A stretch of 48,824 nucleotides of DNA from Candidatus Sumerlaeota bacterium (lineage in GTDB: Bacteria > Sumerlaeota > Sumerlaeia > JADFCW01): assembly GCA_017161705.1 (NCBI GenBank), contig JADFCW010000008.1:1-48824 (forward strand), written 5' to 3'. The notes beneath the pieces are model-generated. The model was not told where the DNA came from and did not search any database. It saw nothing but the letters and a program-made list of their open reading frames with translations. Position 1 is the stretch's first letter. Each line of letters begins with the position of its first letter. Shown piece after piece: positions 14,498-20,208 of the stretch. Made by a program: the position numbers and the translations under genes.

Positions 14498-15511
14498 ATG
14501 AAAAGACGCAGCGTATCATGGGTCGTGGGGATTGCACTGCTCGCGTGTCTGATGATTGTGGTGATCCTTTTCTCTTCCTTTCTCCGGCCTCAAGGCATTT
14601 CACTTGCCTCAATTGGCAGGGGGGCGGTCGCAATAGTTCGCATTGAAGGCACAATTATGGATCCGACCAATCCGATCCGCCTGATTCGACTGTATGCCAA
14701 GAGCCCCGCTGTCCGCGCCATTCTGGTTCGCATTGAGTCGCCCGGCGGCGCGGTCGGCGCCTCGCAGGAAATTCACCGCGAAATCCTGCGGGCACGGCGC
14801 GACAGCGGCAAGAGAGTTGTGGCCTCGATGGGCAACGTGGCGGCGTCCGGCGGCTACTACGTCGCTTGCGCGGCCGAGGAAATCTTTGCCAATGCCGGCA
14901 CGGTCACCGGCAGCATCGGCGTCGTACTCGAAACATACGACCTTCAGGGCATCAGCAAGAAAATCGGCATAGGCGTCAATACGATCAAGAGCGGCCAGAT
15001 GAAGGACGTCGGTTCGCCCTTCCGCGAAATGACGCCCGAGGAGCGTCAAGTTCTTCAAACCACCATTGACGACACGTACGACCAGTTTCTCGAAGCCGTG
15101 ATCGAGGGAAGGCAGGCGGCGCTGGCCCGCGCATGGCGGAATCACACTGACAAGCCAACCACAGCAAGCCGCGCGACCGACCGCCTGACGACGCCGGGCA
15201 TACCGGCCGCCGATGCCCGCCAAACATCGCCCACGCGCGAGACCCTCAAGGATTTTCTGCGCTCGTTTGCCGACGGCCGCGTCCTCAGCGGGCGTCAGGC
15301 CCTCGAACTCGGCCTGGTTGACCGCCTCGGCGGACTCCAGGACGCCACCGACCGCGCCGCCGAACTTGGCGCCATTCGCGGCAAACCGACCATCCTGCAG
15401 GAACGGCGCAAACCCTCGCTCTGGGAGCTGATCCGTGGACGAAACGATCCCGTTTCACGCTTGATCTCTCCCAACGGCTTCGCTCTCCAATACCGCCTGG
15501 TCTTTGATTAG
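14498..15511 (+). CDS. sppA: Signal peptide peptidase SppA (S49 family)
   Basis: Membrane anchor at N-terminus; S49 motifs AILVRIESPGGAVGASQEIHREI, VVASMGNVAASGGYYVACAAEEIFANAGTVTGSIGVV; DGRVLSGRQALELGLVDRLGG. ATG at 14498 follows GAGGAG. Confidence 0.92.
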   Translation: MKRRSVSWVVGIALLACLMIVVILFSSFLRPQGISLASIGRGAVAIVRIEGTIMDPTNPIRLIRLYAKSPAVRAILVRIESPGGAVGASQEIHREILRARRDSGKRVVASMGNVAASGGYYVACAAEEIFANAGTVTGSIGVVLETYDLQGISKKIGIGVNTIKSGQMKDVGSPFREMTPEERQVLQTTIDDTYDQFLEAVIEGRQAALARAWRNHTDKPTTASRATDRLTTPGIPAADARQTSPTRETLKDFLRSFADGRVLSGRQALELGLVDRLGGLQDATDRAAELGAIRGKPTILQERRKPSLWELIRGRNDPVSRLISPNGFALQYRLVFD

Positions 15512-15668
15512 CCGGGTCGGAAAAATAGAATCGTGGCCGGTACCTCGGACAGCCGATCCATACCACAACCGGCGAACAAAGGCTTCGCTTTTTTTCGTAA
15601 AAAGGTTCTTGACAGAAGCCAACCGAATCCGCAGGCATAGCGCTCGTTTTTTTGAAAGGACGCAAAGG

Positions 15669-15764
15669 GTGAACGTAAGTTTTTCGCGAGCAAAGGAGAA
15701 ACCGAGCGGCATAAAGAAGCGCCGTCCGATCATCGGGCGGCGGCGACTTTGCTCTGTTTTTTGA
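15669..15764 (+). CDS. Putative Lys/Arg-rich leader peptide (31 aa, GTG start)
   Basis: AAAGGA at 15655-15660, 8 nt before GTG; translates to (M)NVSFSRAKEKPSGIKKRRPIIGRRRLCSVF*. 4 Lys and 6 Arg codons; the stop is 32 nt before a terminator hairpin. Confidence 0.5.
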   Translation: MNVSFSRAKEKPSGIKKRRPIIGRRRLCSVF

Positions 15765-15806
15765 TTGCAGAAAGACCCGGAACTGCAAAGCATTCACCCG
15801 CCGCCC
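15720..15806 (+). promoter_or_regulatory. Candidate attenuator region: hairpin 1:2 and alternative pairing 2:3
   Basis: 1:2 = 15720-15728 cgccgtccg with 15734-15742 cgggcggcg (one G-U); 2:3 = 15735-15743 gggcggcgg with 15798-15806 ccgccgccc (9 bp perfect). The two are mutually exclusive. Confidence 0.55.
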
Positions 15807-15830
15807 TTCATGACGGCGGGTTTTATTTTT
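15797..15830 (+). terminator. Intrinsic terminator-like hairpin just upstream of the homocitrate synthase gene
   Basis: cccgccg (15797-15803) / cggcggg (15814-15820), followed by ttttattttt. Confidence 0.7.
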
Positions 15831-15858
15831 GCCCAACGACATTTGGGGGAGCACGGCC

Positions 15859-17058
15859 ATGACGATCGGCGCTTTCAGCATTGTAGATTCTACCCTGCGC
15901 GAGGGCGAACAGTTCGCTTATGCGCGCTTTACCACCAAGGACAAGCAGGACATTGCCCGGGCGCTGGATGCCTTCGGCGTCGAGTATATCGAACTGAGTT
16001 CGCCCGCCTCTTCGCCGATCAGCATGCAGGACACGAAACTTCTGCTGGACCTCGGGCTGCGGGCCAAAATCGTTCCCCATCTGCGCTGCGACCGAAAAGA
16101 CATTTCCCTGGCGCTCGATAGCGGCGTGCGCGTGATTCACATGATGTTCGGCACCTCGGCGCAGCTGCAAATGTTCAGCCATGGCAAAACGATTGACTAT
16201 ATCGCAGCGCGCGCCGCCGAAATGACCCGGTTTTGCAAGGACGAAGGCTGCGAGGTCCGATTCAGCGGCGAGGATGCCTTCCGCAGCCGCACGGAAGACC
16301 TCGACCGCGTCTTCGATGCCGTCGTCGAGGCCGGCGTGGACCGCATCGGCCTGCCCGACACGGTCGGCCGTGCAACCCCCTTCGAAGTCCACGATGTCGT
16401 GTCGCGGTTTCGAAAACGGTATCCCGGCATCCAGATCGAGTTTCACTGCCACAACGACACCGGCTGTGCGATTGCCAACGCCTGGGCGGCCCTCGAAGCG
16501 GGCGCCACGCATATTGACACAACGGTCCTCGGCATCGGCGAACGAAACGGCATCACGCCCCTGGGCGGCCTGATCGCCCGGCTCTATGCCGTAGACCGCA
16601 GCCTGGTGGCCAAGTACGACCTGAAACAGCTGAAGCCGCTGGATGAATTGGTGGCGGCCAAGGTCGGCATTTCAATCCCGTTCAACAATCCGCTGACCAG
16701 TCCGACGGCCTTCTTTCACCGGGCCGGCATCCATACCAATGCGATCCTGCGAGCCCCCGAAAGCTACGAAATCTTCAACCTTGACGATTTTGGCTTGACC
16801 CGCACGCTCGATCGCGCGCATCGGTTGATCGGTAAGAATGTGATCAAATCCCGCGCGGCAGAACTGGGATTGACGCTGAGCGAGGATATCCTCTACGAGG
16901 TTACGTGGGAGATCAAGACCATGAGCGACCAGGAGCGCCTGACGCCCGAATTTGTGGACGCGCTGCTGCGCGAGGCCGCCGCCGGTCGTTTCCGCTCCTC
17001 CATGCATTTTACGCAGGAGGGCTCTACCATACCGAATTCCCTTCACAAGGAGAAATGA
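15859..17058 (+). CDS. Homocitrate synthase (AAA pathway)
   Basis: DRE-TIM metallolyase: FSIVDSTLREGEQFAYARF, IEFHCHNDTGCAIANAWAALEAGATHIDTTVLGIGERNGITPLGGLIARLY. Followed directly by lysWXYZ. Confidence 0.88.
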   Translation: MTIGAFSIVDSTLREGEQFAYARFTTKDKQDIARALDAFGVEYIELSSPASSPISMQDTKLLLDLGLRAKIVPHLRCDRKDISLALDSGVRVIHMMFGTSAQLQMFSHGKTIDYIAARAAEMTRFCKDEGCEVRFSGEDAFRSRTEDLDRVFDAVVEAGVDRIGLPDTVGRATPFEVHDVVSRFRKRYPGIQIEFHCHNDTGCAIANAWAALEAGATHIDTTVLGIGERNGITPLGGLIARLYAVDRSLVAKYDLKQLKPLDELVAAKVGISIPFNNPLTSPTAFFHRAGIHTNAILRAPESYEIFNLDDFGLTRTLDRAHRLIGKNVIKSRAAELGLTLSEDILYEVTWEIKTMSDQERLTPEFVDALLREAAAGRFRSSMHFTQEGSTIPNSLHKEK

Positions 17059-17228
17059 CCATGCCGAACTTTATCTGCCCCGTCTGCGAAGCCGACTTGG
17101 AGTTCGACGGCGTCGAGGAAGGCGAAATCGTCGTCTGCGACGAGTGCAGCGCCGAACTCGAAATCATCAGCCTCGAACCGCCTCAACTGGCCGAGGCCCC
17201 CGAAGAAGAAGAGGACTGGGGGGAGTAG
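17055..17228 (+). CDS. lysW: Amino-group carrier protein LysW
   Basis: Small acidic zinc-ribbon protein (MT)MPNFICPVCEADLEFDGVEEGEIVVCDECSAELEIISLEPPQLAEAPEEEEDWGE ending in EDWGE. ATG overlaps the upstream TGA (ATGA). Confidence 0.95.
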   Translation: MTMPNFICPVCEADLEFDGVEEGEIVVCDECSAELEIISLEPPQLAEAPEEEEDWGE

Positions 17229-17406: not shown

Positions 17407-18258
17407 ATGAAAATCGGCATTCTCCTTTCGCAAGTGCGCAAGGAAGAAAAACTGCTTTTCGAGGAGTTCGATCGCCGCGGCATCCCCTATGACCGCATTG
17501 ACGACCGCGAGGTTATCTTCGATCTCCATCGCAAGGACTTTTCCCACTACGACGTCGTCGTCGAGCGCTGCATCAACCACTCGCGCGCGCTGCACGCCCT
17601 CCTGATTCTCAACATGCAGGGCGTCAAGACGGTCAACACGTACGAAGTCGCCGCCGTCTGCGGCGACAAGCTCAATACCACCGTTCACCTCATCAAGGCC
17701 GGTGTTCCCTGCCCGCCCAACTTCGTGGCTTTCACCGAAGAATCGGCCCTGAAGGCCATCGAAAAGATGGGCTATCCGGTAGTGCTCAAACCGGCCGTTG
17801 GATCGTGGGGACGGCTCCTGTCGAAGGTCAACGACCGCGAGGCCGCGGAAGCGATTCTCGAGCACAAGACGGTACTCGGTTCGTATCACCACTCGATTTT
17901 CTACATCCAGAAATATGTCGAGAAACGCGGACGCGACATTCGGTCGTTTGTCGTGGGCGATAAGACAATCTGCGCCATTTATCGTACCTCGCCTCACTGG
18001 ATCACCAACACCGCCCGCGGCGGCGTGGCCGCCAACTGCCCCGTGACCGACGCGCTGAACGACATCAGCGTGCGCGCGGCGCGCGCGGTCGGCGGCGGCG
18101 TGGTCGCCATTGACATCTTCGAAACCGACGCGGGCCTCATGGTCAACGAGGTCAACTACACCATGGAGTTCCGCAACAGCATTCTTCCGACCGGCGTCAA
18201 CATCCCCGAAAAGATCGTGGACTACGTGCTGGAAGTGGCAGAGGGAAGAAAGAGTTGA
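17407..18258 (+). CDS. lysX: LysW-alpha-aminoadipate ligase LysX (ATP-grasp)
   Basis: [79 protein letters not shown]...[13 protein letters not shown]; closely resembles Thermus LysX as remembered. Confidence 0.95.
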
Positions 18259-18335: not shown

Positions 18336-19382
18336 ATGAGCGAAAAACTGAAAGTGTCCATCGTTGGCGCCTCCGGATACGCCGGCGGCGAGTTGCTTCG
18401 CATCCTGATGTTCCATCCCCGCGTCGAGCTCAAACAAGCCTCGTCGGAGAGCCATCCGGGGCGGCCGATCCACAGCGTCCATGCCAATTTGCGCGGCCTC
18501 CTGCCGATGAAATACTGCAAGTACGACGAGCTCGAAAATGCCGACATCATTTTTGCCGCCGTCCCTCACCACGTCAGCATGAAAATCATGCCGCAGCTAC
18601 GCACGAAGGCCAAGAAGATCATTGACCTCAGTGCCGACTTCCGCCTGCGCGACCCCAAACTGTACGAACTGTGGTATGGCGTGCCCCACGAGGCCCCCGA
18701 CCTGCTAAAGGAATTTGTCTATGGCGTGGTCGAGGTCAACCGGCCCAACATCATCGGCGCCGATCTCGTGGCCGGCGCCGGCTGCAACGCCACCGCCACG
18801 ATTCTCGGCGTCTATCCGCTGGTCAAAGCAGGTGTCCCGATCAAACACATTCTCGCCGATATCAAGGCCGGCTCGTCCGAAGGCGGCAAAAAGCCGTCCG
18901 AGGCCTCGCACCACCCCGAACGTGCCGGCTGTGTCCGTTCCTTCATGCCCACCGGTCATCGTCACACCGCCGAAGTGCTCCAACTGCTCGGCAGCACCGA
19001 CCCGCACCTGGTGGAAATGTCCGTCACGGCGATTGACATGGTGCGGGGAATTCTGGCGACCATCCACGTCACGACCGAAACCCGGCTGACCGAGAAAGAC
19101 CTCTGGAAGCTGTTCCGCGACGCTTACAAGGACAGTCCGTTTGTCCGCATCGTCAAGGACAAGCAGGGAATTTTCCGCTATCCGGAACCGAAGATTCTCG
19201 CTGGCTCGAACTACTGCGACGTCGGGTTCGAGGTGGACGAACGTACGGGTCGTGTTGTGATCATTTCAGCCATAGATAACTTGATGAAGGGCGCGTCGGG
19301 CAACTGCGTGCAGGCAATGAACCTCATGTGCGGCTGGCCGGAAACCGCGGGACTGGAGTTTCCGGGCCTCCATCCGGTGTAA
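18336..19382 (+). CDS. lysY: LysW-gamma-L-alpha-aminoadipyl-6-phosphate reductase (LysY/ArgC family)
   Basis: ArgC-type: KVSIVGASGYAGGELLRILMFHPRVEL, VAGAGCNATATILGVYPLV, DNLMKGASGNCVQAMNLMCGW; position between lysX and lysZ. Confidence 0.93.
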   Translation: MSEKLKVSIVGASGYAGGELLRILMFHPRVELKQASSESHPGRPIHSVHANLRGLLPMKYCKYDELENADIIFAAVPHHVSMKIMPQLRTKAKKIIDLSADFRLRDPKLYELWYGVPHEAPDLLKEFVYGVVEVNRPNIIGADLVAGAGCNATATILGVYPLVKAGVPIKHILADIKAGSSEGGKKPSEASHHPERAGCVRSFMPTGHRHTAEVLQLLGSTDPHLVEMSVTAIDMVRGILATIHVTTETRLTEKDLWKLFRDAYKDSPFVRIVKDKQGIFRYPEPKILAGSNYCDVGFEVDERTGRVVIISAIDNLMKGASGNCVQAMNLMCGWPETAGLEFPGLHPV

Positions 19383-19395
19383 AGAGAAAGCGAGG

Positions 19396-20208
19396 ATGCC
19401 GCTGATGATTGTCATTAAGATCGGCGGGAGCGAGGGGACGGATTTCGCGGCGATCTGCGCCGATGTCGCTGCGCGCATTGCCGCCGGCGAGAAGTTCGTC
19501 CTCGTCCATGGCGGATCGAACGAAACCAACCAGCTAAGCGAAGCACTCGGCCACCCGCCGCGGTTCGTTACCTCGGTCTCCGGACAGGTCAGCCGCTATA
19601 CCGACCGCAAGACGCTCGAAATGTTTATCATGGCCGTCGCCGGAAAAGTGAACACCCTCCTGGTCGAAGCCTTGCAGCGGAACGGCGTGAACGCAATCGG
19701 CCTTACGGGACTGGACGGCCGGCTGCTCGAGGCCAAACGCAAGGACACCATCAAGGTTGTCGAAGACGGCAAGACAAAAATTCTCCGCGACGACTACACA
19801 GGTAAAATCGAAAAGGTCAACGTGGCGCTGCTCCAGAGCCTTCTGATGCAGGGCTACACCCCCGTCGTGGCGCCGCTGGCCATCTCAACCACCCATGACG
19901 CGGTCAACGTGGACGGCGACCGCGCCGCCGCGATGATCGCCGGCGCTTTGGCTGCCGATATGCTGATTGTTTTCTCGAACGTGCCCGGCCTTCTGCGCGA
20001 CGTCAACGATCCGGCGTCGCTGATCGGCGAAATTCCGCGCGAACGCCTTGAAGAGTTCGCGCAGTTCGCCAAAGGTCGGATGAAAAAGAAAATCATGGGA
20101 ACCGGCGAGGCCCTGGCCGGCGGCGTCAAAGAAATCCGCCTCGCCGACGGCCGTGTCGCTCATCCTCTCCAGAACGCCCTCGAAGGCCGTTGCACGGTGA
20201 TTCACTGA
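19396..20208 (+). CDS. lysZ: LysW-aminoadipate kinase (LysZ)
   Basis: Amino-acid kinase: MIVIKIGGSEG, KFVLVHGGSNETNQLSEALG, NVDGDRAAAMIAGALAADMLIVFSNVPGLL; cluster context. Confidence 0.93.
   Translation: MPLMIVIKIGGSEGTDFAAICADVAARIAAGEKFVLVHGGSNETNQLSEALGHPPRFVTSVSGQVSRYTDRKTLEMFIMAVAGKVNTLLVEALQRNGVNAIGLTGLDGRLLEAKRKDTIKVVEDGKTKILRDDYTGKIEKVNVALLQSLLMQGYTPVVAPLAISTTHDAVNVDGDRAAAMIAGALAADMLIVFSNVPGLLRDVNDPASLIGEIPRERLEEFAQFAKGRMKKKIMGTGEALAGGVKEIRLADGRVAHPLQNALEGRCTVIH

Follow-up and report, generated by a model that had tools for sequence, protein, structure and literature searches.

The lysine operon hcs-lysWXYZ of a Candidatus Sumerlaeota bacterium is very probably controlled by a ribosome-mediated transcription attenuator, which would make its expression depend on charged tRNA-Lys. 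The candidate element lies in a stretch of 48,824 nucleotides in contig C358 of the genome (hereafter the window), where a TTGACA box, a GTG-initiated leader ORF, a hairpin of segments 1 and 2 (1:2) and an intrinsic terminator of segments 3 and 4 (3:4) follow one another between sppA and the homocitrate synthase gene hcs (Table 1). An earlier sequence-only reading had proposed the leader ORF with its AAAGGA Shine-Dalgarno sequence and Lys-Lys codons, the three pairing segments and the terminator, and all of them are present where it had placed them. A well-formed attenuator adds support to the reading of hcs-lysWXYZ as a lysine operon, and suggests that leader-peptide attenuation operates in a phylum without regulatory genetics.

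Table 1. Features of the region from sppA to lysZ in the window.
Feature	Position	Strand	Remarks
sppA	end at 15511		upstream neighbour of the leader region
terminator-like site after sppA	15571-15589		
TTGACA, probable -35	15609-15614	+	sequence; conserved spacing to leader start codon
AAAGGA, leader Shine-Dalgarno	15655-15660	+	eight bases before GTG; also present in G001, but not evident in G010
leader peptide ORF, GTG start	15669-15764	+	VNVSFSRAKEKPSGIKKRRPIIGRRRLCSVF*; 31 codons, 4 Lys
Lys-Glu-Lys codons (AAG GAG AAA), secondary control codons	15693-15701	+	modelled P(terminator) 0.08-0.35 with ribosome here
Lys-Lys codons (AAG AAG), main control codons	15714-15719	+	modelled P(terminator) 0.00-0.01, P(antiterminator) ~1.0
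segment 1	15720-15728	+	CGCCGTCCG, encoding Arg-Arg-Pro; pairs with 15734-15742, hairpin -19.1 kcal/mol
segment 2	15734-15743	+	CGGGCGGCGG, encoding Gly-Arg-Arg; partner of segment 1 or segment 3; inverted repeat I2
segment 3	15796-15806	+	ACCCGCCGCCC; antiterminator 3' arm and terminator 5' arm; inverted repeats I2, I4
segment 4 and U-tract of intrinsic terminator	15814-15830	+	kept in G001 and G010
hcs, homocitrate synthase	15859-17058	+	ATG start; first gene of putatively regulated operon; then lysW, lysX
lysW, carrier protein	17055-17228	+	MTMPNFICPVCEADLEFDG...EEEEDWGE; ATGA overlap with hcs stop; identity inferred from sequence, position and G006 ORF
lysX	17407-18258	+	TIGR02144, 351 bits, over cut-off
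lysY (argC-like)	18336-19382	+	TIGR01850, 392 bits
lysZ, [LysW]-aminoadipate kinase	19396-20208	+	NF010659, 397 bits, over cut-off

The hcs product scores 397 bits against TIGR02146, slightly under the cut-off of 413.6, and is 50-52% identical to its homologues in Thermaceae. Despite the sub-cut-off score, its identity as judged from sequence is backed by the clear LysW-cluster setting, and a lysW-like ORF (MTAECPVCEAEVTLPK...EEEEDWGE) also follows hcs in another member of the phylum (G006). A close hcs occurs in four of the 40 genomes of our phylum sample and a strong lysX match in three; the Sumerlaeota relatives compared here are metagenome-assembled genomes. A match to lysA (diaminopimelate decarboxylase) above the cut-off is found in both genomes with a full lys operon, that of the window (G000:C142:5875-7056) and that of a same-genus relative, G001 (G001:C253:7376-8572), with scores below those of most relatives; neither G010 nor G006 has a lysA match.

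The pairings that the sequence-only reading had arranged in a 1:2 / 2:3 / 3:4 layout are confirmed. Over 9 bp, GGGCGGCGG (15735-15743) in segment 2 is perfectly complementary to CCGCCGCCC (15798-15806) in segment 3, and this antiterminator overlaps the 5' arm of the terminator and hence excludes it. The terminator (15796-15803 paired with 15814-15821, then TTTATTTTT) folds at -15.3 kcal/mol. The central part of the predicted leader peptide reads …AKEKPSGIKKRRPIIGRRR…, and besides the Lys-Lys pair the leader has Lys codons at 15693 and 15699. The GTG is the probable start because of its Shine-Dalgarno sequence and a conserved spacing to TTGACA, which is 60 nt in the window, 61 nt in G001 and 60 nt in G010; the frame is open further upstream, to a TTG at 15504, so an alternative in-frame start is possible. 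The proposal that TTGACA could be a -35 box with a weak -10 agrees with this spacing and with a weak candidate -10 around 15633-15639. The region also contains an imperfect direct repeat, GCTCGTTTTTTTGA / GCTCTGTTTTTTGA, in the leader 5' UTR (15642-15655) and at the end of the leader ORF (15751-15764), both T-runs of which are kept in G001, and a perfect 8-bp inverted repeat, GAGCAAAG / CTTTGCTC (15688-15695 and 15747-15754), which encloses the 1:2 hairpin and is partly broken in G001.

Placement of the control codons relative to these helices is the second line of evidence. A ribosome was modelled on each leader codon in turn and the RNA beyond it was folded, with the ribosome edge set at 9 to 15 nt. 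For a ribosome at Ile-Lys-Lys-Arg, the modelled probability of the terminator was about 0; it was intermediate at the following Arg and rose to 0.9-1.0 for all positions between Pro and the stop codon. The switch point was stable within one or two codons across these edges. A second zone of low termination covers Lys-Glu-Lys, so that every Lys codon lies in an antitermination zone. The termination zone takes in the Arg run at the C-terminus and the stop codon; without a ribosome, 1:2 and the terminator form. The model thus bears out the earlier proposal that a stall at Lys-Lys favours the antiterminator. Equilibrium folding was rejected as the sole test since it does not discriminate in G001 and G010: at full length, the G010 RNA always prefers the terminator, and that of G001 prefers the antiterminator at most ribosome positions. 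Folding of nascent RNA ending inside the terminator was therefore added beside it, and places the switch point between the Lys codons and the Arg run at the C-terminus in all four leaders (window, G001, G010 and Thermus-type). The predicted discrimination in G001 and G010 rests on this kinetic folding.

In the mechanism that we propose, transcription would start about 24 nt before the leader GTG, near 15645. When Lys-tRNA is plentiful, the translating ribosome would clear the Lys codons and reach segment 2 or the stop codon; with segment 2 either covered or refolded with segment 1, segments 3 and 4 would form the terminator ahead of hcs. Under a shortage of Lys-tRNA, the ribosome would stall at Lys-Lys and cover segment 1, leaving segment 2 free to pair with the emerging segment 3, whereupon no terminator would form and RNA polymerase would read into hcs. 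If the leader were not translated at all, 1:2 would form and transcription would be expected to terminate.

Conservation in relatives, on which the sequence-only reading had staked most, is the third line of evidence: leader, helices and promoter spacing recur in G001 and, in a largely different sequence, in G010. The hcs of G001 is 95% identical to that of the window in protein and 90% in DNA. Across 15692-15743, which holds the Lys codons and segments 1 and 2, none of the 52 positions is changed in G001, while 26% of the fourfold-degenerate sites in hcs differ, the longest identical run in hcs is 47, and the spacer from sppA to the promoter is largely unalignable (51 differences in 89 columns). 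The terminator hairpin differs at two of 25 positions, and the antiterminator pairing is 9 bp as in the window. The G001 leader is read in the same frame (VNVNFLTAKEKPSGIKKRRPIIGRR*); its first eight codons vary without indels and its ORF stops at a TGA directly after segment 2, which indicates that only the central part of the leader is constrained.

G010 belongs to another family, and its hcs is 71% identical to that of the window. There, a Lys-rich ATG ORF (MHFTPKRKPKKDKRASTATARRRREAH), whose peptide differs from that of the window, stands the same distance behind TTGACA, with a strong terminator after it. A 12-bp pairing joins the start of its Arg run (GCGAGGCGGCGG) to CCGCTGCCTTGC, which comprises the terminator arm and loop, and six of 1000 shuffles gave a pairing as good. 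Segment 1 and the 1:2 protector hairpin are not evident in G010, although the placement of the control codons fits there too. Relative to the window, the G010 terminator carries a C-G to U-A double change compatible with both helices, the matching antiterminator pair changing from G-C to G-U; this one double change, in 3:4, is the candidate compensatory change seen so far, from two independent Sumerlaeota lineages that carry the putative attenuator. No Lys leader was found before hcs in G006 (hcs 61% identical), and by eye there is no such attenuator before the distant hcs homologues of G140, G145, G284, G259 and G414. Nor was a Lys leader with terminator found before lysK, lysY and lysZ of G010 or before isopropylmalate/homoisocitrate dehydrogenase homologues, and because the element was not found before these other lysine-pathway candidates, it probably acts on the operon that starts with the first committed step.

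Could the same arrangement arise by coincidence, with an ordinary terminator serving an upstream transcript, a short ORF in front of it by chance and the hcs promoter after the terminator? Intergenic terminators are common, and ORFs of similar length with Lys-Lys arise in 2-5% of shuffles. A 9-base complement to the terminator arm was reached in seven of 1000 dinucleotide shuffles of the leader and in 31 of 1598 122-mers drawn at random from the window; none of the window's three remaining terminator-like sites has an upstream complement of more than 5 bases. The energy of the 2:3 duplex was equalled or beaten in three of 1000 shuffles, and a short ORF with Lys-Lys and at least four Lys was seen in 22 of 1000 shuffles and six of 1070 random window stretches. 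Over its full 221 nt, the region has only a moderate folding advantage over shuffles (z -2.28), and the single shuffle tests each come out at about 0.3-5% for a region that was picked for its striking look. What makes coincidence very unlikely is the setting: the end of sppA lies about 280 nt upstream and is followed by a terminator-like site of its own, the gap from the U-tract to hcs is only about 28 nt, and leader sequence, pairing and promoter spacing are all conserved.

If the element is an attenuator, the next question is which amino acid it senses, and lysine as the only signal is less certain than the attenuator itself. Lysine and arginine synthesis share LysW-type chemistry, and a stall for either at the KKRR codons (15714-15725) might raise hcs expression. 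The Arg codons that adjoin Lys-Lys (15720-15725) do fall within the antitermination zone or on its border, with a modelled probability of termination of 0.01 at CGC and 0.34 at CGT for the standard ribosome edge, and the G010 leader also mixes Arg codons among its Lys codons. To this extent, the earlier proposal of stalling at Lys or Arg codons stands; it does not extend to the CGG CGG CGA run, which is essentially segment 2 itself and where a stall is predicted to give termination. We regard dual sensing as unlikely, however, because the conserved C-terminal Arg run is in the termination zone in all leaders, Arg codons are expected to arise as a side effect when a G+C-rich segment is translated in frame, and the genome of the window has separate argB and argC copies elsewhere, so that the hcs operon is not needed for arginine. 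With the Lys codons in the antitermination zone and the Arg run outside it, these gene copies make a Lys-specific signal more likely. Lysine is therefore the likely signal in our model, and the Arg run likely serves mainly to encode segment 2.

Two further explanations would dispense with the sensing of tRNA-Lys by a translating ribosome, and we consider both highly improbable. One is a riboswitch for a metabolite or tRNA (a lysine riboswitch, a T-box or a new class) beside which the ORF would be incidental. It has precedents, in that leuA is under a T-box in the same genome (L068) and lysine genes elsewhere are often under the L-box riboswitch (PMC1262725). Against it, no Rfam family reaches its gathering threshold in the window, and neither a lysine riboswitch nor a T-box appears at E up to 5 in 15480-15870, where scattered weak sRNA/miRNA matches attributable to chance were the only hits. 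The same search does detect the leuA T-boxes. In addition, the window and G010 have no aptamer-like core in common; what they have in common is a Lys-rich frame with alternative pairs. The other explanation is nascent-peptide arrest, in which the basic peptide itself would stall the ribosome on free lysine or arginine rather than via uncharged tRNA. Basic nascent chains can slow translation, and the block AKEKPSGIKKRRPIIGRR is unchanged between the genome of the window and G001. That invariance is nevertheless explained by RNA pairing, and the G010 and Thermus-type peptides are very different, with only the Lys-then-Arg codons kept.

The comparison with known systems places the putative tRNA-Lys attenuator of Sumerlaeota closest to the classical three-helix form. 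Like the attenuators of trp, his, leu, thr and ilv in Proteobacteria and of trp, ilv and leuS in Actinobacteria (PMC1262725), it has a leader ORF with control codons, 1:2/2:3/3:4 helices and an intrinsic terminator; it differs from them in its amino acid, in its phylum and in governing a LysW-type aminoadipate pathway. Most of the leader-peptide attenuators on record come from Proteobacteria, Actinobacteria and some Firmicutes (PMC2965389). In better-known groups, it is the L-box riboswitch that controls lysine genes; for Actinobacteria, no lysine gene under RNA control was found (PMC1262725). A paper on the lysine genes of Deinococcus-Thermus does not mention their regulation (PMC3356886). 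We found no earlier report of lysine leader-peptide attenuation in Sumerlaeota. To our knowledge, lysine is rarely sensed by leader-peptide attenuators.

Attenuation by an hcs leader peptide has reportedly been published for the Thermus lysine cluster. All 26 Thermaceae genomes with a close hcs have an upstream 14-codon leader with Lys-Lys followed by Arg (pattern M.A..KKLGRRG.G; MLAREKKLGRRGVG and variants, with AAA AAA) and a terminator. The window has the same features: a short leader before hcs with Lys-Lys, then Arg-Arg, the Lys codons before the switch point and Arg and stop after it, and a terminator 5' arm able to pair with an element that starts inside the leader. However, the antiterminator in Thermus is a local hairpin from the last leader codons, with no separate segment 1 hairpin, whereas in the window the leader runs to 31 codons and a 1:2 protector hairpin is present, and the overall architecture of the window is nearer to the classical attenuators than to the Thermus form. 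We noticed no nucleotide similarity between Sumerlaeota and Thermus leaders, over lengths too short for a formal test of descent; a short peptide pattern is common to both. The Sumerlaeota hcs leader would be a further case of a known mechanism, in a second phylum beside that of Thermus. It may be, and we offer this tentatively, that such leaders had separate origins in Sumerlaeota and in Thermus, and perhaps two within Sumerlaeota, in each case with Lys codons and then an in-frame Arg run doubling as an antiterminator arm, so that the second half of the peptide would be dictated by RNA pairing while possibly also sensing Arg. Either way, these Lys-then-Arg leaders offer a testable case of convergence or of very old inheritance.

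Several observations were made alongside. T-box leaders (RF00230), which like the hcs element end in a terminator/antiterminator and sense tRNA charging, stand before leuA-type genes in the genome of the window and other Sumerlaeota (L068, at G000:C193:4300-5200, and L070, L073, L074, L076 and L080). Leader peptides were looked for before Sumerlaeota leuA, and several of these genes have T-boxes instead. The hcs element differs from them in its predicted reliance on a translated ORF and has no T-box match, and one genome thus pairs a T-box at leuA with candidate leader-peptide control at hcs. About 1 kb upstream of hcs in G001 there is a match to the Acido-Lenti-1 RNA above its gathering threshold (L032:4926-4970, minus strand). 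Finally, at three loci from three genomes of two other families (L064, L065 and L067), a conserved ORF of 35-38 codons with the motif RPELF.(G)SC, for example MKQCRFMPMTVVYTPRRCRPELFGSCQVRQELLGHVVP, ends at or overlaps the start of hcs.
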